Shown: in pieces, positions 8,993 through 28,686 of the stretch
Position numbering within the stretch: position 1 is the first letter of the stretch
Layout: every line of letters begins with the position of its first letter
DNA from: a virus
IMG/VR virus record: IMGVR_UViG_3300032334_000372
Location: 1-28,686 of that record
Length of the DNA stretch: 28,686 bases
Direction: 5' to 3' (one strand)
Translations under genes and position numbers: made by a program
The notes under the pieces: model-generated
The model's database searches: none
What the model was told of the DNA's origin: nothing
The model's input: only the letters and a program-made list of their open reading frames with translations

Positions 8993-9171
8993 TGCCGATT
9001 CAAGAGTTCACCTGCTTGATTTGTGGCGCTCGGAAGTATCGAGACTTGTCGGTCGTGCGACCGCGCAACGTGGTCTGCGTACCTTGCCATGCGTTCATGG
9101 ACAGGACGGCGGTGCTTCCCGATGATGCACCAATCCCCGACGCGCAAGCGGACAGGGTTCGACCTCAATGA
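8992..9171 (+). CDS. 59-aa zinc-ribbon protein
   Basis: It has start-stop overlaps on both sides (TGATG at 8990-8994; ATGA with the methyltransferase at 9168). It has two CxxC knuckles, Cys8/Cys11 and Cys29/Cys32 followed by His33, 17 residues apart, the pattern of a zinc ribbon. An acidic, Pro-rich tail follows. It is coupled directly to the cytosine methyltransferase, which may mean a role in the same process, but small zinc ribbons are common in phage early regions. Confidence 0.7.
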   Translation: MPIQEFTCLICGARKYRDLSVVRPRNVVCVPCHAFMDRTAVLPDDAPIPDAQADRVRPQ

Positions 9172-10241
9172 AACACGCTTCGTTTTTCAGCGGGGTCGGC
9201 GGTCTGGATCTCGGATTCCATCGTGCGGGAATCACGACCGTAAGCGTCTCCGAGATTGATCCATACGCAAGCTCTGTACTAGCCGAGCGATTCCCAGACG
9301 CTCTGAATCTGGGCAATATCTTGGAGGTCAAACCTAATGACATTCCGGACGCAGACATCTGGAGCGGGGGATTCCCCTGCCAAGACCTCAGCGCAGCAGG
9401 ACTCAGGAAGGGATTCGCTGCAGGAACACGATCTAGCCTTGCATTCAGGTTCCTTGACCTTGTGGAGCAGCGACGACCAAACTGGCTCGTGCTTGAGAAC
9501 GTGCCAGGGCTCCTCACATCCAATCGCGGCGCTGACTTCGCCCGACTTCTCAGCGAGATGGTCGAACTCGGGTACAGCGTCTCGTGGCGGGTTCTCGATG
9601 CTCAACACTTCGGAGTCCCCCAGCGAAGGCGACGCGTGTTCATTGTCGGAAATCTTGGAGCCGACCGTGCCGCTGAGGTTCTACTTGAGTGCAAGGGCTG
9701 CGAGCGGCATCCTGCGCCGAGCCGAACGCAGAGGGAAGGTGCTGCCAGCGGAGCTACATCAGGCGCTGGAATCTCTGGCGAGCCAATCAGCCAAGAGCGC
9801 GAATGGAATGCGACGGCTCACTCCGACAGAAACGGAACGACTGATGGGATATCCGGACGGCTGGACGATCAGCCACTCGTGGCAACGGCGACAGCGTTCG
9901 GGCAATATGAAATGACTTCTATTGCTGGAACACTCCGAGCGAAGGGAGGGGATGCTGGTGGTGGCTCCGAGACGATCCTCTCGTTCCCATCTCGCTTCGG
10001 AAGCAACGCGAGCGTGTCAATCGACCAAGCGCAATCAATGGCGCACAGCGCGGGGGCGCCAGCCATTCTACGCATACCAGAACAGCAACAGTCAGCATTC
10101 AGCGACGGCGCATTGTTGCCACAGGGGATTGATTCGCACCGCTACCGCTGCTGCGGGAACGGGGTGGTCGCTCCTGTAGCGGAATGGATCGGACGGAGAA
10201 TCCGTTTGGTCGAGCAGCAGTATCAAGAAGGAGGGAAGTAA
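9168..10241 (+). CDS. DNA (cytosine-5) methyltransferase
   Basis: 357 aa. Transfers a methyl group from S-adenosylmethionine to C5 of cytosine in DNA. Motifs in order: I FSGVGGLDLGF (7-17), IV GGFPCQDLS with catalytic Cys71, VI ENV (110-112), VIII QRRRR (152-156), and X with GNGVV (330-334) followed by VAEWIGRRI. The region 175-320 holds the target-recognition part and includes TLRAKGGDAGGGSE, common in phage enzymes. The usual LTPxExERLxGxPDGWT segment before motif X is not in this frame; it is encoded in the +1 frame by the overlapping gene at 9337-9915. The product may be the first enzyme of a hypermodification pathway, since a TET-associated-type glycosyltransferase lies downstream. Target sequence is unknown; TCCGGA is a candidate. 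Confidence 0.9.
   Translation: MKHASFFSGVGGLDLGFHRAGITTVSVSEIDPYASSVLAERFPDALNLGNILEVKPNDIPDADIWSGGFPCQDLSAAGLRKGFAAGTRSSLAFRFLDLVEQRRPNWLVLENVPGLLTSNRGADFARLLSEMVELGYSVSWRVLDAQHFGVPQRRRRVFIVGNLGADRAAEVLLECKGCERHPAPSRTQREGAASGATSGAGISGEPISQEREWNATAHSDRNGTTDGISGRLDDQPLVATATAFGQYEMTSIAGTLRAKGGDAGGGSETILSFPSRFGSNASVSIDQAQSMAHSAGAPAILRIPEQQQSAFSDGALLPQGIDSHRYRCCGNGVVAPVAEWIGRRIRLVEQQYQEGGK
9337..9915 (+). CDS. Overlapping gene inside the cytosine methyltransferase (+1 frame)
   Basis: 192 aa wholly within the methyltransferase gene. An independent start is suggested by GGAGG at 9323-9327, 9 bases before ATG 9337. The N-terminal half is Ser/Thr-rich, as expected of an overprinted frame. Residues about 100-140 (CSLSEILEP, FYLSARAASGILRRAERRGK) match, from memory, a protein type that recurs in phages as an alternate reading of methyltransferase DNA. 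Residues 159-177 (RRLTPTETERLMGYPDGWT) are a textbook C5-methyltransferase segment that normally sits just before motif X. So this frame holds a methyltransferase element that frame 0 lacks. Options: a separate partner protein, a frameshift product, or a relic of rearrangement. Function unknown. Confidence 0.6.
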   Translation: MTFRTQTSGAGDSPAKTSAQQDSGRDSLQEHDLALHSGSLTLWSSDDQTGSCLRTCQGSSHPIAALTSPDFSARWSNSGTASRGGFSMLNTSESPSEGDACSLSEILEPTVPLRFYLSARAASGILRRAERRGKVLPAELHQALESLASQSAKSANGMRRLTPTETERLMGYPDGWTISHSWQRRQRSGNMK

Positions 10242-12459: not shown

Positions 12460-12882
12460 ATGAGCTTATGGATCAAATGGGACGTGAATGCCCACAAGGA
12501 TGCGGCTATCTCGACGATCAGCGACACAGCATTCCGCGCCTTCATTGTCGCGATTGCAGAATCCAAGCAACTGCGAAGTGCAGGGCGGTTCAAGAGCCGC
12601 GAACATCTCCGGACCTGCATCGGCGCACGGCTGGGACGAGCGATTCCGCAACTGCTTGAGGCTGGTCTACTGATGCAGACTGGGGACGGCGACATCCTGA
12701 TCTCGAACTATGCTCGGTATCAAGTGGATCCCACGTCGAGCAAGCGTCAACGAGATTTCATCGCGAGATCAAGCACGAAATCCAGAACGGATAACGCACT
12801 AGAGCAGAGCAGAACTAGAACAGAGAAGAATCCCCCTACCCCCTTAGGGCTAGGCGAGATTCTCAAGAGGGCGACACGATGA
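12460..12882 (+). CDS. Winged-helix-type replication-associated protein
   Basis: 140 aa with a good ribosome binding site (CGGAGGAC, 12448-12455). Residues 1-85 (LWIKWDVNAHKD, TAFRAFIVAIAESKQLRSAG, LGRAIPQLLEAGLLMQT, ILISNYARYQ) have the helix pattern and the acidic-to-basic switch of the winged-helix N-terminal domain in phage replisome organisers. The basic segment SSKRQRDFIARSSTKSRT and a Pro-rich tail follow. The usual C-terminal DnaD or helicase-loader domain is absent, so it is short for that family. It may recruit host replication enzymes, since the phage has no polymerase or helicase of its own. Function is inferred. Confidence 0.55.
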   Translation: MSLWIKWDVNAHKDAAISTISDTAFRAFIVAIAESKQLRSAGRFKSREHLRTCIGARLGRAIPQLLEAGLLMQTGDGDILISNYARYQVDPTSSKRQRDFIARSSTKSRTDNALEQSRTRTEKNPPTPLGLGEILKRATR

Positions 12883-13418
12883 GAAACGTAGCACTGAGCG
12901 GACGCGCAGGGACGGGGAAATCAACGCTGGCTGGTCTACTGGCGCAGCATTACGAGTACCACACGACGAGCATCGCAACGCCGATCCGGACGATCGCGAC
13001 GATGTCGTATGGACCGTTTGACAAGACGAAGAGCTATCCGATGGAACAACTTGGGCTATCGACCTTTGTTTCTGGACGAGAACTGTTGCAGAACATTGGG
13101 GCATCGCTGCGGGAGATGGATTCGTACTTCTGGATGCGAGCGTGGGAGCGCAGCCTCTGGACCAAGGGTGCTGAGCCGTGGGTGGTCGACGATCTCAGAC
13201 TTGATGCCGAGCACGAGTACATCAGACGGCTATTTCCGGACACGCTCTTCGTCAGGCTGGTTCGACCAGACCAGCGCACCGATCAGGCGTGGCAGCAGGA
13301 CATCACCGAGCGCGGGGCAGGAGATCTCCCTGCTGCGCTGGTACTAGACACCGTCGCGCTGACGGAGGTAGAGTGCCTACAGGCAATCGTCGAGATGGCG
13401 AGAAGGGAGAACGCATGA
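12879..13418 (+). CDS. Deoxynucleoside monophosphate kinase-like P-loop protein
   Basis: 179 aa, ATGA overlap with the previous gene. Walker A GRAGTGKST at 8-16, a nucleotide-binding core, VVDDLRL as a Walker-B-like strand, and a Gln/Arg-rich lid region (VRPDQRTDQAWQQD) are the pattern of phage deoxynucleoside monophosphate kinases and related AAA-like kinases. It would phosphorylate dNMPs and help supply dNTPs, possibly including altered ones. Length fits the family (about 170-240). The substrate cannot be read from the sequence. Confidence 0.75.
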   Translation: MRNVALSGRAGTGKSTLAGLLAQHYEYHTTSIATPIRTIATMSYGPFDKTKSYPMEQLGLSTFVSGRELLQNIGASLREMDSYFWMRAWERSLWTKGAEPWVVDDLRLDAEHEYIRRLFPDTLFVRLVRPDQRTDQAWQQDITERGAGDLPAALVLDTVALTEVECLQAIVEMARRENA

Positions 13419-13642: not shown

Positions 13643-13941
13643 TGATCGTCAAGCGGGTCACTTTCAAAGGCGAGCCATATTTCGTTTCGCAATCACTCGC
13701 AACCGCTGAAATGTTCTCCGTTGACGGACAACTTTGGGCGAAGCTCAGTACCTACGTGGAAGGGGAGACCCCTCCTGCTGGGTACTTCTTCTGCAAGGCA
13801 TACAGCGAGAACGAAGAGTTGGTCGATGAGTTGATTCGGCAGGGCGCGCTGGTCGTTCGACCTGAACCAATCCTGCTGCCACCGTATGGCGCTCGCGTCT
13901 ACATCGCGCGTGTCAACGCCGATCCGGAACCAGAACAATGA
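13642..13941 (+). CDS. Hypothetical protein
   Basis: 99 aa with an AGAGGAGGT ribosome binding site (13627-13635). It starts with a beta hairpin (MIVKRVTFKGEPYFVSQSLA) and is otherwise mixed, with a Pro-rich C-terminus (PEPILLPPYGARVYIARV). No known motif. The next small membrane protein begins inside its stop. Confidence 0.65.
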   Translation: MIVKRVTFKGEPYFVSQSLATAEMFSVDGQLWAKLSTYVEGETPPAGYFFCKAYSENEELVDELIRQGALVVRPEPILLPPYGARVYIARVNADPEPEQ

Positions 13942-14102
13942 TCAACACACTGGTTGTCGCGCTCGTGCTGATCCACACAGGGATCGCTATGTGTATGGCG
14001 TGGATCGCCCTCACGGTTCCGCGCGCGAATCTCGTGATCGTATCTGTCTGGTTCGTGATCAGCGTGCTGACAGCGATTCTACTTGGGAGGGCTATTCGAT
14101 GA
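13938..14102 (+). CDS. 54-aa two-span membrane protein
   Basis: A small gene with ATGA overlaps on both sides (13938 with the previous TGA; its TGA at 14100 with the next ATG at 14099). It encodes two hydrophobic helices (LVVALVLIHTGIAMCMAWIA and VIVSVWFVISVLTAILL) joined by TVPRAN, ending in a basic tail. The exact fit between neighbours strongly supports it. It could be a second holin or an inhibitor of a host membrane protein; neither can be shown. Confidence 0.7.
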   Translation: MINTLVVALVLIHTGIAMCMAWIALTVPRANLVIVSVWFVISVLTAILLGRAIR

Positions 14103-14608
14103 AGTTTGCATACGCCGACCCGCCGTATCACAAACAGGGCAAGAAACTGTACGGCGAGCACCACAAGGATGCTGCTGTTTGGGATTCAAAGGACGAGCAC
14201 CTCAAACTTATTGCACGACTGATTACTGAATATCCGGACGGCTGGGCGCTCTCGTGCAATCCTGCAGACTTGCGCTGGCTGCTACCAGCAACGCCCGAAG
14301 GGACTCGCGTGTGCGCGTGGGTGAAAACATTTCACCAGATTCGACCGACGACTGTGCAGTTTGCATGGGAGCCAGTGATCTTGTACGGAGGGCGCAAGGA
14401 CAACAAGCGCAGCCCAATGGTGCGAGATTGGTACATCGGAGTTCCAACGCGGATGAAGGGACTTCCGGGGGCGAAATCCGACGAGTTCAACGACTGGATT
14501 CTGGACTTGCTGAACTATGAGGACGGCGATCAGGTAGACGATCTGTTCCCCGGAACGGCTGGAATGGCTCGTGCGATAGACCGCCTAAACCTCTGGCGGC
14601 TACGATGA
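14099..14608 (+). CDS. DNA adenine N6-methyltransferase-like protein
   Basis: 169 aa from ATG 14099. Motif IV DPPY lies at residues 7-10 and the SAM-binding motif I (FPGTAG, 150-155) is at the C-terminus, the beta-class order (catalytic motif first). The middle (PDGWALSCNPADLRWLL, VCAWVKTF, WEPVILYGG) matches small phage N6-adenine or amino-methyltransferases, some used to block host restriction. It is short, so target recognition may be minimal or supplied by another protein. Substrate base and site are unknown. It is separate from the cytosine-5 enzyme, giving the phage two different DNA methylation activities. Confidence 0.8.
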   Translation: MKFAYADPPYHKQGKKLYGEHHKDAAVWDSKDEHLKLIARLITEYPDGWALSCNPADLRWLLPATPEGTRVCAWVKTFHQIRPTTVQFAWEPVILYGGRKDNKRSPMVRDWYIGVPTRMKGLPGAKSDEFNDWILDLLNYEDGDQVDDLFPGTAGMARAIDRLNLWRLR

Positions 14609-16820: not shown

Positions 16821-17459
16821 ATGGACGTTCGATCTCGAATCGTTGGGCACGGTGAGGAATCTCCGGACCAGTTACTTGCGAACCCGCTGAACTGGCGCAT
16901 CCATCCAAAGCACCAGCAGGATGCGATGCAGGGCGTGCTGGAAGAAGTCGGCTGGGTGCAATCTGTGATCGTCAATCGAACGACTGGCAATCTGGTCGAT
17001 GGTCACATGAGGGTGGCGCTCGCGCTGCGTCAGGAGCTCGCGTCAATCCCAGTCGTGTACGTGGATCTCAGTCCTGAGGAGGAGGAGATCGTGCTGGCTA
17101 CGCTTGATCCTCTCGGAGCGGCTGCAGCGACCGACAAGGTCAAGCTCGCGGAACTTCTCGCCGACGTTTCGGTGACCTCTCAGCACCTTGAGCGTTTCCT
17201 CTCCGGACTCGGGGACGATGGCTCAGGAATGACCCACGCAGAGCGGCTAGCTGAATGGACTGGGATGCCTGAATACGAACAGCAGAATCTCACGCCGCAC
17301 AAGACCATTTTCGTTCACTTCAAGAACGATGAGGACGTGGCTGCGTTTGCCAAGTTGATCGGTCAGGTATTCACGCCGCGCACGAAATCAATCTGGTTCC
17401 CTGTTGCAGACGAGCCAGCCGATTTGTCCACAATGCGGTACACCGCTGATGAATCCTAG
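16821..17459 (+). CDS. ParB/sulfiredoxin-like domain protein
   Basis: 212 aa from ATG 16821, four bases after AGGAGGGATT; a TTG at 16803 is unlikely. The N-terminal ~100 residues match the ParB nuclease/CTPase superfamily: PLNWRIHP, GVLEEVGWVQSVIVN, and VDGHMRVALAL (DGHMR at 60-64) where many members have G-H-R. The C-terminal part (HKTIFVHFKNDEDVAAFAKL, TKSIWFP) is a second conserved module found with phage ParB proteins. Such proteins occur beside DNA base-modification genes, where they may mark or position target sites. It overlaps the glycosyltransferase gene by 11 bases, which supports a shared pathway. Its exact action is unknown. Confidence 0.8.
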   Translation: MDVRSRIVGHGEESPDQLLANPLNWRIHPKHQQDAMQGVLEEVGWVQSVIVNRTTGNLVDGHMRVALALRQELASIPVVYVDLSPEEEEIVLATLDPLGAAAATDKVKLAELLADVSVTSQHLERFLSGLGDDGSGMTHAERLAEWTGMPEYEQQNLTPHKTIFVHFKNDEDVAAFAKLIGQVFTPRTKSIWFPVADEPADLSTMRYTADES

Positions 17460-18336
17460 GCATCCGATCTACATCGTCAGCAAAGGGCGCTGGGATTCAC
17501 GGCTGACATCAAAGGCGCTACATCGACTAGGTGTTCCGCATTTCGTGGTGGTTGAGGAACAGGAAGCGGATGCGTATCGAGCGGCGCTCGACAGCAGCGC
17601 CACCGTTCTGATTCTCGACAAGCAGTATCAGCGCGACTACGAAACCTGCGACGATCTCGGAGATACCAAGAGCAAGGGTCCGGGGGCGGCGCGCAACTTC
17701 GCGTGGGAACATTCAATCAAGCAGGGAGCTTCGTGGCATTGGGTGATGGACGACAACATCAAAACGTTCTACCGACTCAACAAGAACCTCAAAACGCACG
17801 TGACGGATGGGGCAATATTCCGAGCGATGGAGGACTTCGTTGAGCGGTACGAGAATGTCGGGATGGCTGGTCCGGACTACTCAATGTTCGTCTACCGCAA
17901 GAAGAAGGAACCGCCATTCATTATGAACACGCGAATCTATTCCTGCAATCTCATCAGGAATGATTTGTCCTACCGCTGGCGTGGTCGATACAATGAGGAC
18001 ACCGATCTATCGCTGCGGATGCTGAAGGACGGCTGGTGCACAATGCAGTTCGTTGCGTTCTTGCAGGAGAAAGTTGCCACGCAGTCAATGGGTGGTGGCA
18101 ACACCGCTGAGTTCTACGCCGCTGAGGGAACACTTCCGAAGTCCAAGATGCAGGTCGCGCTGCATCCGGACGTGTCTAAACTTGTGTGGAAGTTTGGGCG
18201 ATGGCATCATCAGGTGGACTACGGCGTATTCAAACGAAACAAACTGATCCGCAAGGCTGGTGTTGAGGCAAGCGGCGTAAACAACTATGGAATGCGATTC
18301 CAGAAACGGGAGGGCGACAAATGGGTGGACAAATAA
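17449..18336 (+). CDS. TET-associated-type DNA-base glycosyltransferase
   Basis: 295 aa from ATG 17449. GT-A-like fold: IYIVSKGRW (7-15), VVVEEQEADAY, GPGAARNFAW (77-86), HWVMDDNI with the metal/sugar-binding acidic pair Asp101-Asp102, MNTRIYSCNLIRND, RGRYNEDTDLSLRMLKDGW, and QSMGGGNTAEFY. This series matches, from memory, the TAGT family described with phage TET/JBP dioxygenases, which adds sugar to hydroxymethylcytosine in DNA. No TET/JBP gene is visible here. The partner genes are a ParB-like protein before it and a Gp88 protein after it. The acceptor base might be a modified cytosine made from 5-methylcytosine by an unidentified enzyme. Confidence 0.8.
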   Translation: MNPRHPIYIVSKGRWDSRLTSKALHRLGVPHFVVVEEQEADAYRAALDSSATVLILDKQYQRDYETCDDLGDTKSKGPGAARNFAWEHSIKQGASWHWVMDDNIKTFYRLNKNLKTHVTDGAIFRAMEDFVERYENVGMAGPDYSMFVYRKKKEPPFIMNTRIYSCNLIRNDLSYRWRGRYNEDTDLSLRMLKDGWCTMQFVAFLQEKVATQSMGGGNTAEFYAAEGTLPKSKMQVALHPDVSKLVWKFGRWHHQVDYGVFKRNKLIRKAGVEASGVNNYGMRFQKREGDKWVDK

Positions 18337-19019
18337 AGCGCGTGCCGCTGCTGCGTCAGAATCGCGAACTGCGGGAAATCGGTGTCTGGAACTGGACGAT
18401 TCCTGCGCTCGGCGCTCGGCTCGATGACGGGCGAACAATCCTGACCTGCCCACAGGCAGGAGCTTGCGCGTCGCTGTGCTATGCACGCAACGGAACATTC
18501 CTGTTCCGGAATGTCAAGGCTGCACACGCTCGCAATCTCAAGCGCGTGCTGGATGATCTCAACAACTGGAAGGACGAGATGATCGCTGAGGCAACCAAGC
18601 GTGCTCGCGGTGGCTATGTCCGCATCCACGATTCAGGCGACTTCTTCTCGGATGAATACCTACAGACGTGGCTGCACATTGCAGCGGCAGTACCAACCAC
18701 AACCTTCTACGCCTACACGAAGGAAGTCAGCCGATTCAAGAGGATGGTGGAGGGCAAGGCTCCAAGCAACTTCAAATGGCTGTACTCAATGGGCGGCAAG
18801 GAGGACCATCTCATTGATGTTGAGAACGATCGACACGCTGAGGTGTTTCCGTCTGCGGAATCATTAGCAGCAGCGGGATACTTCAATCAAGAGGAGTCCG
18901 ATGTCTTGGCAATCGAAGCGCCAACGAATAGAATCGGGATCGTAGCCAATAACATTTCCCATTTCCGGAAACGTCAGGGGGCAGCAACATTTGGAGGGCT
19001 GCAGAAAGGTAGAGGCTGA
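18321..19019 (+). CDS. Gp88-family cysteine-rich protein
   Basis: 232 aa from ATG 18321, with GGGAGGG (18308-18314) upstream and a 16-base overlap with the glycosyltransferase. The pattern TCPQAGACASLCYARNG (Cys43-x5-Cys49-x3-Cys53), RIHDSGDFFSDEYLQTW, FYAYTKEV, then DRHAEVF and AAGY is that of the phage Gp88 family, first named in mycobacteriophages. Three closely spaced cysteines and an alpha/beta layout suggest an iron-sulfur cluster, perhaps in a radical-SAM-like fold, but the spacing is not the canonical CxxxCxxC. The product is unassigned biochemically. Its position next to a DNA-sugar transferase makes a DNA-modification role plausible. Confidence 0.75.
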   Translation: MGGQIKRVPLLRQNRELREIGVWNWTIPALGARLDDGRTILTCPQAGACASLCYARNGTFLFRNVKAAHARNLKRVLDDLNNWKDEMIAEATKRARGGYVRIHDSGDFFSDEYLQTWLHIAAAVPTTTFYAYTKEVSRFKRMVEGKAPSNFKWLYSMGGKEDHLIDVENDRHAEVFPSAESLAAAGYFNQEESDVLAIEAPTNRIGIVANNISHFRKRQGAATFGGLQKGRG

Positions 19020-19504
19020 TGGGCGTTCGTGGACCAGCGCCGAAACCAACACGCCTGAAGGTGCTGTCAGGGGAAACGCGCCCGAGCGTGATCAACTACG
19101 CCGAGCCGATTCCTGCTGCTGGCAATCTCACCGCCCCTGCGGATATGCGTGACGATGCGCGCGCAGTCTGGAATCGGGTACTAGATGCGCTCGGAGCTAC
19201 TGGCGTGCTCACGTCAGCCGACAAGGATTTACTGCGATTGTATGCAGAGGCGATGGCGCGCTACCTTGAGGCTGAGGCGATGCTCGCCAAGACTGGTCCA
19301 CTGCTCAAGGGTCGAGATGGTACCTTCGTCAAGAATCCGCTACACCAAATCGTTCGCGACAATGCGGAGTCGGTCAAGAAGTACGCACGAGAGTTAGGAC
19401 TCACACCCGCAGCGCGGGTCGGACTGAGGGGGGATATTGATGGACAAGCAAACTCGGCGACGGCGAAGCTCGACGCAATCATCCGAGCAGCGCGACGCGC
19501 CTGA
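19019..19504 (+). CDS. Terminase small subunit (P27 family)
   Basis: 161 aa, TGATG overlap with the Gp88 gene. MGVRGPAPKPTRLKVLSG is the classic opening of P27-type small terminases. Residues about 40-110 (DARAVWNRVLDALGATGVL, DKDLLRLYAEAMARYLEAEAML) and LGLTPAARVGL complete the family pattern. The small subunit recognises phage DNA and starts packaging with the large subunit encoded next. It overlaps the large-subunit gene by 65 bases. Confidence 0.9.
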   Translation: MGVRGPAPKPTRLKVLSGETRPSVINYAEPIPAAGNLTAPADMRDDARAVWNRVLDALGATGVLTSADKDLLRLYAEAMARYLEAEAMLAKTGPLLKGRDGTFVKNPLHQIVRDNAESVKKYARELGLTPAARVGLRGDIDGQANSATAKLDAIIRAARRA

Positions 19505-20945
19505 GGGCGAACTAGTCGCGACGTTCATAGAGTCGTTCTGTCGACTCTCAAAGGGCGATCAGGCTGGGCAGTTGATCAAACTGCGACCGTGGCAGCGCGA
19601 GATCCTCAACGAGTTGTTTCGTCATCGTCCGGACGGCAAGCGCAAGTACCGCCGTGGGCTGCTACTGATGCCACGCAAGAATGGCAAGTCGCTGCTGGCT
19701 GCAGGGATCGCGCTGTATTCGTTGTTTCAGGAGATCGGCGCTGAGGTCGCAATCGTCGCAGGCGACCGCGCTCAGGCACGGATTATATTCCGCGAGTGCT
19801 CGCGAATGGTTGAGCTTGACCCGATCCTGAGCCGCAAGTTGCACGTCCTGCGCGACGTGATCGAATACCCAGAAACAGGCTCCGTGCTGCGTGTGCTGTC
19901 GTCGGATGCGTCGAGAGCTGAAGGGTTCAACTTCTCAACCGTGTTGTTTGACGAGATTCACGTACAGCCGAATGATCGCCTTTGGTCGACCGTGAACTTG
20001 GGTAGCGGTGCTCGCAGGAATCCTCTCGTGCTGGGAATCAGCACGGCTGGAACGAAAACAGATAGCAGCGGTCAGGATTCGCTGTGCTACAAGTTGTGGC
20101 AATACGGACAGCGACTTGAGAGCGGCGAACAGAAGGACGATGCCTTCTATTTCCGATGTTTCAGCGCGCCAGACAATCTCGCGTGGGATTCTCCGGAAGC
20201 AGCACAGGCAGCGAACCCAGCCTATGGGGATTTCCTAGACCCTGAGGATTTCGCCGCCGCAGCGCGTTCGATTCCCCGTCATGAGTACGAAACGAAGCGG
20301 CTCTGTCGCTGGGTCTATAGCGCCGACCCATTCGTGCCAGCAGGGACGTGGGACGCGTGCGCGAATCCTGAGCTCACGCTGTCGCCCGACGACGAGATCG
20401 TGCTCGGATTCGACGGCTCGTTCTCATCCGACTCCACAGCCATCGTGGGTGTCCGGATCAGCGACAAGGCGGTGTTCGTGCTAGGGCACTGGGAGCGCGC
20501 GCTGGATGGGGATCTGTCGTGGCGTGTTCCGATTGAGGAAGTCGAAGCGCGGATGGTCGAACTCTGCAGCACCTACAACGTGCGCGAACTAGTCTGTGAC
20601 CCGTTCCGTTGGCAGCGATCAATGGAAGTGTGGGTACAGCAAGGGCTGCCAGTCGTTGAGTTCCCTCAAACACCGTCGCGAATGGTGCCAGCGACCGCAG
20701 GGGTGTACGATGCGGTCGTCAATGGGAATCTCAGCCATACTGGTGATCCACGGCTGGCGCGACACGTCGCGAACGCTGCGCCATACTATTCGCGAGCGGG
20801 TCTAATGGTTCGCAAGGAAACGAAGAACAGCCTCAAGAGGATTGACTTGCTGGCTGCAACCATTATGGCGCACAGCCGTGCGTGTACACTTGCAACTGCT
20901 CCAGCACCAAAGGCTGCAGCCAAGGTCGAATACATTGAACTATAG
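19440..20945 (+). CDS. Terminase large subunit
   Basis: 501 aa from ATG 19440, chosen because GAGGGGGG lies 7-13 bases upstream; a TTG directly before it is less likely. This is the HK97-type packaging motor and nuclease: Walker A-like MPRKNGKS (77-84), Walker B VLFDEI with Asp171/Glu172, coupling motif GISTAGT, then an RNase-H-like nuclease with GFDGS (Asp325) and CDPFRW (Asp387). A late acidic residue in the C-terminal helix region (RIDLLAATIMAH) completes the site. It drives ATP-powered DNA packaging into the prohead and cuts the concatemer. Length fits the family. Confidence 0.95.
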   Translation: MDKQTRRRRSSTQSSEQRDAPEGELVATFIESFCRLSKGDQAGQLIKLRPWQREILNELFRHRPDGKRKYRRGLLLMPRKNGKSLLAAGIALYSLFQEIGAEVAIVAGDRAQARIIFRECSRMVELDPILSRKLHVLRDVIEYPETGSVLRVLSSDASRAEGFNFSTVLFDEIHVQPNDRLWSTVNLGSGARRNPLVLGISTAGTKTDSSGQDSLCYKLWQYGQRLESGEQKDDAFYFRCFSAPDNLAWDSPEAAQAANPAYGDFLDPEDFAAAARSIPRHEYETKRLCRWVYSADPFVPAGTWDACANPELTLSPDDEIVLGFDGSFSSDSTAIVGVRISDKAVFVLGHWERALDGDLSWRVPIEEVEARMVELCSTYNVRELVCDPFRWQRSMEVWVQQGLPVVEFPQTPSRMVPATAGVYDAVVNGNLSHTGDPRLARHVANAAPYYSRAGLMVRKETKNSLKRIDLLAATIMAHSRACTLATAPAPKAAAKVEYIEL

Positions 20946-27990: not shown

Positions 27991-28181
27991 GGCTGGCTGC
28001 TCGTCAAATAAGTTTGGGGCAGCCGATCTCCCCACCAGCCGAAATCGTGTTCCACGTTCTAGCTGAGAAGTTCGGCAAGTTTCCGTGGGAAGTAGAGGAC
28101 GCGCCGCTACACTTGGTGCTCAAGGCGTGGGCATTGCACGCCGAAATGCAGCCAAAGGAAGTGAAGCGTGGTCGATCCTAA
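27700..28181 (+). CDS. Tail assembly chaperone, frameshifted long form (gpGT-like)
   Basis: Frame 0 from 27700 to the slippery site, then -1 frame to TAA at 28179-28181. The second part reads RLRLAARQISLGQP, then PPAEIVFHVLAEKFGKFPW, EVEDAPLHLVLKAWALHAEM and a basic end. The segment with FPWEV and a helical Ala-rich end matches the T part of tail chaperone fusions. The -1 frame contains no stop and no good start of its own, so it must be reached by frameshifting. Total about 160 aa. The next gene begins 14 bases before its end. Confidence 0.8.
27978..27984 (+). promoter_or_regulatory. Slippery heptamer for -1 frameshift
   Basis: CCCAAAA, read as C CCA AAA in frame 0, fits the X-XXY-YYZ rule. 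It lies two codons before the TGA of the short chaperone, and the -1 frame stays open for 65 codons afterwards. This is a conserved feature of tail chaperone genes. Confidence 0.8.
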
Positions 28182-28686
28182 GCGTTCTGGATTGGTCTAC
28201 TTGACTGAAGGTTCACTGCGCGACATTGACGAGTTCAGGCTCGGATTTATTGAGGCTAGTAATCCGCGCAAGTTCAGGGCAATGCTGCAAATGGCAACGC
28301 TCAATGCGGCGCGCACAATGGTGAAACCAGTCAAGGCTGAAGCTCCAGTCCGGACTGGAAGGCTACGCGGGGCTGTCGCTGCGCGCAAGGCGAAGTTCAA
28401 CAATCCAGCAGCCGTGGTCGGTGTCAAGGCGGGAGCCTCACGCGGCGACAGCAAGGGCGCGTGGTACCGCTGGTTCATCGTCAGCGGTCACCGCACGCGG
28501 GGGACTGGTCGAGCGCCAGAGCGCATTACGTGGGAACAGGCTGCGGCTGGAGTCCCGCTTCCAGCGCGACGCAACCGTGGATTCGTTCCAGCGCGCAACT
28601 TCGTCTACGATGCGACAAGCAACTCGTCGGTGCGAGCACGGGCTGAGGAAGTGCTCGCCAAGACCGTGCGCGCTTGGCTCGATGGC
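28168..28686 (+). CDS. HK97 gp10-like tail completion protein (cut by window edge)
   Basis: 173 codons to the right edge with no stop; GTG 28168 has AGGA 8 bases upstream. The pattern MVKPVKAEAPVRTGRLRGAV, GAWYRWFIVSGH and FVPARNFVYDA is that of HK97 gp10-type proteins, which help join or complete the tail. These are normally 130-190 aa, so little is missing. The C-terminus may be the IKYKARKAK tail at bases 2-31 of this window. If the window ends are joined directly, the frame instead runs into the tape measure, giving a 641-aa fusion that would be unusual. Confidence 0.75.
   Translation, partial: MVDPKRSGLVYLTEGSLRDIDEFRLGFIEASNPRKFRAMLQMATLNAARTMVKPVKAEAPVRTGRLRGAVAARKAKFNNPAAVVGVKAGASRGDSKGAWYRWFIVSGHRTRGTGRAPERITWEQAAAGVPLPARRNRGFVPARNFVYDATSNSSVRARAEEVLAKTVRAWLDG

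Follow-up and report, generated by a model that had tools for sequence, protein, structure and literature searches.

Genes of the Locus and Extent of the Genome

The window, that is, the whole 28.7 kb stretch of DNA analysed here (viral record G000), carries one after the other the genes of a ParB-like protein, a TAGT-family glycosyltransferase, a Gp88 protein and the two terminase subunits (Table 1). A preliminary description made from the letters alone had listed these neighbouring genes, together with the three TAGT motifs MDDN, GPGAARN and RYNEDTD and a C5-cytosine DNA methyltransferase at 9168. All are present where stated; Pfam or PHROG matches support the ParB-like protein, TAGT, Gp88 and the C5 methyltransferase.

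Table 1. Features of the window discussed in the text.
Feature	Coordinates	Strand	Basis or remark
C5-cytosine DNA methyltransferase	9168..10241	+	PF00145 E=8e-55; canonical PCQ motif
Deoxynucleoside monophosphate (dNMP) kinase	12879..13418	+	PF21448 E=1.4e-9, phrog_139 E=2.5e-22
Possible amino-methyltransferase	13886..14608, likely start 14099	+	DPPY and glycine-rich DLFPGTAGM-like motif, read from the sequence
ParB-like protein, 212 aa	16821..17459	+	several PHROG ParB / DNA-methyltransferase family matches
C-terminal TAGT-partner domain (CTD) of ParB, ~65-73 aa	17238..17459	+	pairing with TAGT across loci
TAGT-family GT-A glycosyltransferase	17449..18336	+	PF20691; probable start ATG 17449; ORF open from TTG 17404
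GP88 protein (Gp88)	18321..19019	+	PF17338 E=4.4e-50
Terminase small subunit (TerS)	19019..19504	+	ORF; directly downstream of the cassette; synteny kept in most relatives
Terminase large subunit (TerL)	19437..20945	+	ORF; conserved synteny
HK97-gp10-like gene	28168..28686	+	cut by the window end; last codons are the window's first 30 bases

In an alignment with the relative L084, the end of the window matches up to position 14493 of L084, and the beginning of the window matches from position 14496 onwards. Its two ends thus lie 2 nt apart in L084, at a junction inside the HK97-gp10-like gene, and the tape-measure gene comes next. The gene content covers the head, tail, lysis, recombination and packaging sets. 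Judged from this alignment, the window is practically a whole genome, about 2 nt short relative to L084. The putative amino-methyltransferase has no Pfam or PHROG match, and neither Rfam nor a tRNA scan gave a match in the window.

The Glycosyltransferase and Its Partner Domain

TAGT matches PF20691 along positions 2-205 of 205 (E about 3.1e-48 to 3.6e-48; 164.9 bits for a cut-off of 27.5). Counting residues from the TTG at 17404, D116, D117, N118, G92, G94, R97, N98, E198, D199 and D201 are invariant among 22 aligned TAGTs, so that the GT-A catalytic motifs DDN and NEDTD are intact. The ATG at 17449 is nevertheless a more likely start than this TTG because the relatives begin with 'MNPxxPIYI'; from this ATG, the gene overlaps that of the ParB-like protein by 11 nt. 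The structure predicted for L040, a relative that is ~67-71% identical and in which the CTD and TAGT are fused, matches GT-A glycosyltransferases, namely generic protein or glycan enzymes such as COLGALT1 and GnT-I, and this model supports the assignment of TAGT as a GT-A enzyme. In L083 and L084, a NAD-dependent nucleotide-sugar epimerase is inserted between ParB and TAGT, a gene order that would fit a role in providing the sugar donor. The phages and prophages that carry TAGT have diverse hosts, including Erwinia, Pantoea, Rhodovulum, Xenophilus, Chryseobacterium and Verrucomicrobia.

The ParB-like protein consists of an N-terminal ParB domain (about residues 1-130) and of the CTD, whose motif is W.GMPE[FY]...F..L..Q...K.IW[FY]P. 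The CTD has no Pfam match and only weak, scattered PHROG matches; it is apparently undescribed in these two domain libraries. Of the 91 assessable loci, 87 have the CTD immediately before TAGT or fused with it, a count that leaves out five more loci cut by contig ends. Three arrangements are seen: the CTD may end ParB-like proteins of diverse kinds, form a separate protein of ~80 residues, or make up the N-terminus of TAGT itself. This last form, a fusion, was found in 11 loci, including those of the Aeromonas phages Ah1, Aeh1, phiAS5 and 65. Used as a single query, a free CTD protein retrieved 33 new loci, all with TAGT as the next gene (33/33), and two other matches that are unrelated. In bacterial genomes, the CTD accompanies TAGT in 16 of 18 loci. 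Clustering of the neighbourhoods revealed nothing else common to the TAGT loci except terminase and portal genes. The gene neighbourhoods therefore indicate that the actual partner of TAGT is the C-terminal domain of ParB, which the preliminary description had overlooked.

Exchange of the Modifying Enzyme behind ParB

The ParB N-terminal domain was found in 80 loci, which are not independent since several are near-identical. In 73 of them, an assigned modifying payload follows ParB or is fused to it. This payload is an N6/N4 methyltransferase in 31 loci (in some as one ORF with ParB), TAGT in 18 (two clades), Mom in 17, ABC-GNAT in 4 (only L211 in the Pfam scan), a C5 methyltransferase in 2 and a GT-B enzyme in 1. 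The remainder includes four near-identical loci devoid of payload, two in which ParB is fused to a DUF4417 or phosphoribosyltransferase-like domain and one unclear case. TerS and TerL come after the payload in most of the 80 loci. The order is exactly ParB-Mom-Gp88-TerS-TerL in L085-L093, where Mom takes the place of TAGT. As in other ParB-linked cassettes, ParB is found in the window directly upstream of a modifying enzyme and of the terminase.

The payloads differ in their chemistry. Mom (phage Mu type, PF25680), which shares the ParB slot in L085-L093, L153 and L208-L221, is a GNAT-like enzyme that acts on the N6 of adenine and, unlike the TAGT payload, transfers no sugar. N6/N4 methyltransferases, Mom and C5 methyltransferases all have unmodified DNA bases as their direct substrates.

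ParBc domains are often fused with DNA methyltransferases or located beside them, and no function has been ascribed to them (PMC12783734). The ParB-linked methyltransferase/CmoX cassettes resemble the window locus in having ParBc beside, or fused to, a base modifier (PMC12783734; also L155) but the payload of the window is a glycosyltransferase. Furthermore, CmoX has an SPPC motif whereas the C5 methyltransferase of the window has PCQ.

Search for an Acceptor-Making Enzyme

It had been stated from the letters that the genome encodes neither a TET/JBP enzyme nor a hydroxymethylase. This holds for what Pfam recognises: at E<=0.1, no 2OG dioxygenase, Tet_JBP or thymidylate-synthase family was found among nearly all the window proteins, the TET profile PF12851 having no working positive control. 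A crude HxD...H...R pattern occurs 6 times in these proteins for 4.1 expected from shuffled proteins; a 2OG dioxygenase proposed from the HxD...H pattern was rejected since this frequency is near chance.

The search was extended to other genomes. PF12851, still without a working positive control, matched nowhere, including 397 genomes of one phylum. In the same way, 16 whole bacterial genomes that carry TAGT yielded no TET, again with a weak control. These TET negatives prove little, and the case is built instead on the thymidylate-synthase search and the 12-genome comparison given next. No thymidylate-synthase family member was detected in 39 environmental TAGT or Gp88 records, while named large phages and control genomes were positive. 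The dCMP hydroxymethylase, hallmark of the T-even hmC pathway, was found neither in these 39 records nor by the Pfam scans of the window. TAGT contigs of 28-100 kb and two cultured Vibrio phages of 48 kb gave no TET and no thymidylate-synthase-type hydroxymethylase (TET profile uncontrolled). Their C5-methylase matches are few and scattered, with a weak one in 1.124.O. Among cultured Vibrio phages, 1.124.O and 1.076.O both carry the CTD-TAGT fusion.

The window was also compared with 11 relatives, some of them incomplete contigs; among these 12 genomes, four carry TAGT and eight have Mom or a methyltransferase in the slot. TAGT alone is common to all four genomes that carry it while missing from the eight others, hence no phage-encoded acceptor enzyme tracks TAGT. 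A special role of the C5 methyltransferase together with TAGT is not supported: the gene is missing from two of the four TAGT genomes (G001 and G089) and present in six of the eight others, and of 30 environmental TAGT records only 5 have it. By this distribution it is a backbone gene whose occurrence does not follow that of TAGT, for which reason 5mC was rejected as the handle. The dNMP kinase is likewise found in relatives that have Mom in the slot. Carboxymethylation of the CmoX type was also rejected as a source of the handle, given that the window enzyme has PCQ and not SPPC and that no CmoA-like gene was seen.

Comparison with Known Glycosylation Systems

Phage hypermodification systems in which 5mC, TET and TAGT act together were reportedly described by Iyer and colleagues in 2013 and by Burke and colleagues in 2021. 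They share with the window the family name of TAGT and the presence of a C5 methyltransferase in the genome. They differ from it in two respects: no TET is recognised in the window (with the uncontrolled profile PF12851), and its C5 methyltransferase is not coupled to TAGT.

A TAGT does not presuppose TET, contrary to what had been assumed for the window. The TAGT-family enzyme of T2 and T6 adds a second glucose to the glucosylated hmC of phage DNA (PMC13390438, PMC13216743), and solitary TAGTs have been published: TAGT occurs without alpha-GT or beta-GT in 288 of 753 phage genomes (PMC13216743). This enzyme, the beta-glucosyl-HMC-alpha-glucosyltransferase (ggt), makes gentiobiosyl-hmC and is phage-encoded like the window TAGT. 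The T6 protein also matches PF20691 (E=1e-8) and has a GT-A fold (PMC13216743). However, it shows no useful pairwise similarity to the window TAGT. The two are remote relatives, so that the DNA substrate of the T6 enzyme is not simply transferable to the window TAGT. Furthermore, the T6 gene adjoins gene 42, encoding a hydroxymethylase, of which none is recognised in the window, and its 261 aa product has no room for a CTD. As an observation against reading the window locus as a DNA-modification cassette, the T6 enzyme needs a sugar on hmC, and hmC synthesis is not visible in the window phage.

The CTD-TAGT fusions of the Aeromonas phages Aeh1, Ah1, phiAS5 and 65 and of the Tenacibaculum phage PTm1 carry the same CTD as the window, to whose proteins they are 54-59% identical over ~285 residues. 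The closest named relatives, which include Ah1, Aeh1, phiAS5 and 65, reach 56-59% identity. Unlike the window, these fusion phages are giant myoviruses that encode a thymidylate synthase homologue of their own, and neither a ParB N-domain nor a linkage to the terminase was seen in them. Neither Aeh1 nor 65 is listed with a gene 42 (PMC2993671), and the modified base of Aeh1 is listed as 'unknown' (PMC8056088).

A Probable Modular ParB-Linked Cassette

What the sequences show is the gene content, the conserved catalytic motifs of TAGT, its pairing with the CTD, the exchangeable slot, the near-complete genome and the lack of a recognised TET or hydroxymethylase. In view of the slot, the CTD pairing, the catalytic residues, the epimerase of L083 and L084, the fold of the L040 model, the 12-genome comparison and the published T6-type and ParBc proteins, the window locus is probably the glycosyltransferase form of a modular ParB-linked phage DNA-modification cassette (probability of about 0.7). 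Such a cassette would be made of a ParB-like protein, one interchangeable base-modifying enzyme and, optionally, Gp88, followed by TerS and TerL. The ParB N-terminal domain would serve as a common adaptor, probably in DNA binding or targeting. The CTD would be a dedicated partner that docks or activates TAGT, as suggested by their near-universal pairing and their fusions. TAGT itself would move a sugar from a nucleotide-sugar donor onto bases of the phage DNA, an activity proposed because of the use of the slot and of the T2/T6 precedent. Glycosylation could occur late, near packaging, in view of the position beside the packaging genes, and the sugar would shield the phage DNA against nuclease defences. 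Three genes of the window are not specific to the glycosylation cassette, namely those of Gp88, the C5 methyltransferase and the dNMP kinase. As for the acceptor, the sugar would go either onto a base that carries no modification or onto a handle, which the host or an unrecognised backbone enzyme would supply.

Nature of the Acceptor and of the Target

To our knowledge, all characterised phage DNA glycosyltransferases use a hydroxyl, carried by hmC, hmU, 5-hydroxy-C or a sugar; the TAGT of T6, for instance, adds to glucose. The host, or a phage backbone enzyme that went unrecognised (a diverged oxygenase, for example), could make a hydroxyl acceptor for TAGT to glycosylate in the classical way, and the several window proteins that have no family assignment leave room for such an enzyme. 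This is a serious candidate, although short of even odds. A single shared host enzyme is unlikely among hosts as different as Erwinia, Pantoea, Chryseobacterium, Rhodovulum and Verrucomicrobia. Moreover, only the CTD and terminase/portal genes are common to the TAGT neighbourhoods, and the 16 whole TAGT-bearing bacterial genomes, weakly controlled as they are, lack a TET match.

Alternatively, TAGT and the CTD could put the sugar on an unmodified base, for example on an exocyclic amino group. This is a sub-case of the cassette reading, with an unmodified base as acceptor, and it arises because the other payloads of the slot (N6/N4 methyltransferases, Mom, C5 methyltransferases) modify plain bases. 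The 12-genome comparison, where no gene tracks TAGT, points in the same direction, as do the 28-100 kb contigs and the two Vibrio phages, with no TET or hydroxymethylase and few C5-methylase matches. However, the TET search had no working positive control, and the acceptor may be made by the product of a backbone gene that the Mom and methyltransferase relatives also have. We know of no DNA glycosyltransferase that acts on an unmodified base. Direct glycosylation is thus to be regarded as a tentative possibility, about equally likely as a handle that is host-made or due to an unrecognised enzyme. In its fullest form, which we would put forward only with reserve, ParB/CTD-TAGT would be a self-sufficient system for glycosylation of unmodified bases, targeted or activated by the CTD, widespread among phages and prophages, and interchangeable with methyltransferases and Mom at the packaging locus.

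It is improbable that TAGT targets a virion protein or a host surface polymer instead of DNA. The generic protein and glycan GT-A enzymes matched by the L040 model and the adjoining structural and packaging genes would be consistent with such a target, but TAGT fills the slot that, behind the same ParB domain, holds DNA methyltransferases or Mom in other loci, and family members of T2 and T6 act on DNA.

The preliminary description had proposed that Gp88, as an iron-sulfur or radical-SAM enzyme, makes the acceptor group of TAGT. This is now very unlikely, even though the gene adjoins TAGT in the window, Cys43, Cys49 and Cys53 are invariant in an alignment of 26 homologues and a weak similarity to DUF5131 was found (E=0.005, below the cut-off). 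Gp88 is also paired independently with TAGT in L180-L188, and such neighbourhoods are seen in L057, L072 and L115 as well. However, its cysteine motif is CX5CX3C while the canonical radical-SAM motif is CX3CX2C, and its predicted structure, although confident (pLDDT 91), matched nothing in the PDB at E<=0.001, a TIM-barrel included. A radical-SAM enzyme was therefore rejected, neither the sequence nor a PDB fold supporting it.

The distribution of Gp88 is equally unfavourable. Gp88 is present in 2 of 49 TAGT records; among 50 Gp88 records, TAGT is found in 7, Mom in 7 and neither in most, and in L085-L093 the gene stands beside Mom. The near-complete relative G089 (= L194; 28.45 kb) has a TAGT and a TerL that are respectively 71% and 74% identical to those of the window, but no Gp88. 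This absence and the 2/49 count led to rejection of an obligate Gp88-TAGT pair. A weak association between them is possible, and Gp88 is best seen, from its occurrence among these records, as an optional and separable passenger of the cassette.

Finally, although 28.7-kb virus records such as this one are often fragments, the loss of a TET or hydroxymethylase gene at the window edge, offered earlier as the alternative, is nearly excluded, because the two ends adjoin in L084 within the gp10-like gene, next to the tape-measure gene, and all the gene sets listed above are represented.

Implications for Solitary TAGTs

Every characterised phage DNA glycosylation pathway that we know of builds a hydroxyl handle first, by means of a TET or a thymidylate-synthase-type enzyme, and adds the sugar second. 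The window is a small, near-complete genome in which no acceptor-making gene tracks TAGT. Solitary TAGTs, which are numerous on record, gain here a defined partner, the apparently undescribed CTD, fused to the enzyme in some phages. They also gain a genomic logic, that of a terminase-side slot exchanged with methyltransferases and Mom. The function of solitary TAGTs thereby becomes a two-protein question, for which cultured phages amenable to mass spectrometry exist.

Additional candidate modification genes and forms of TAGT

A second, divergent clade of TAGT, the PF20691-family glycosyltransferase, occupies the ParB slot (the place after the ParB N-terminal domain) in two close relatives, with PF20691 matches at E about 1e-33 to 1e-35 (Table). 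Three other contigs (L115, L116, L119), which also encode the PF17338 protein Gp88, carry a tandem pair of TAGT domains within single proteins about 580-600 aa long. Among small phages from different groups of hosts, Lactobacillus phage c5, Porphyromonas phage phage005 and Nonlabens phage P12024L have TAGT proteins that are only distantly related (22-25% identity).

In the window, the protein with DPPY, for which no family match was found, is possibly an undescribed amino-methyltransferase.

In two relatives, ParB and TAGT are separated by an inserted PF01370 gene, which suggests that the nucleotide-sugar donor is tailored. The GT-B-like protein and the ABC-GNAT fusion are candidate additional base-modifying enzymes, and DUF4417 may also be a base modifier since it is fused to a ParB domain.

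Table. Features in the window and its relatives (L, locus or contig)
Feature	Locus	Position	Evidence or context
DPPY and glycine-rich SAM-site-like motif protein	Window	13886-14608	Motifs
NAD-dependent epimerase/dehydratase	L084	2263-3255	PF01370; between ParB and TAGT
NAD-dependent epimerase/dehydratase	L083	from about 4241	PF01370; between ParB and TAGT
TAGT, second clade	L196	895-1758	PF20691; ParB slot
TAGT, second clade	L204	4095-4961	PF20691; ParB slot
GT-B-like protein	L154	6255-7655	Downstream of the ParB domain that also precedes TAGT
ABC-GNAT fusion	L211	4549-5676	Downstream of the ParB domain that also precedes TAGT
ParB domain-DUF4417 fusion	L232	3995-4981	DUF4417 E=7e-35
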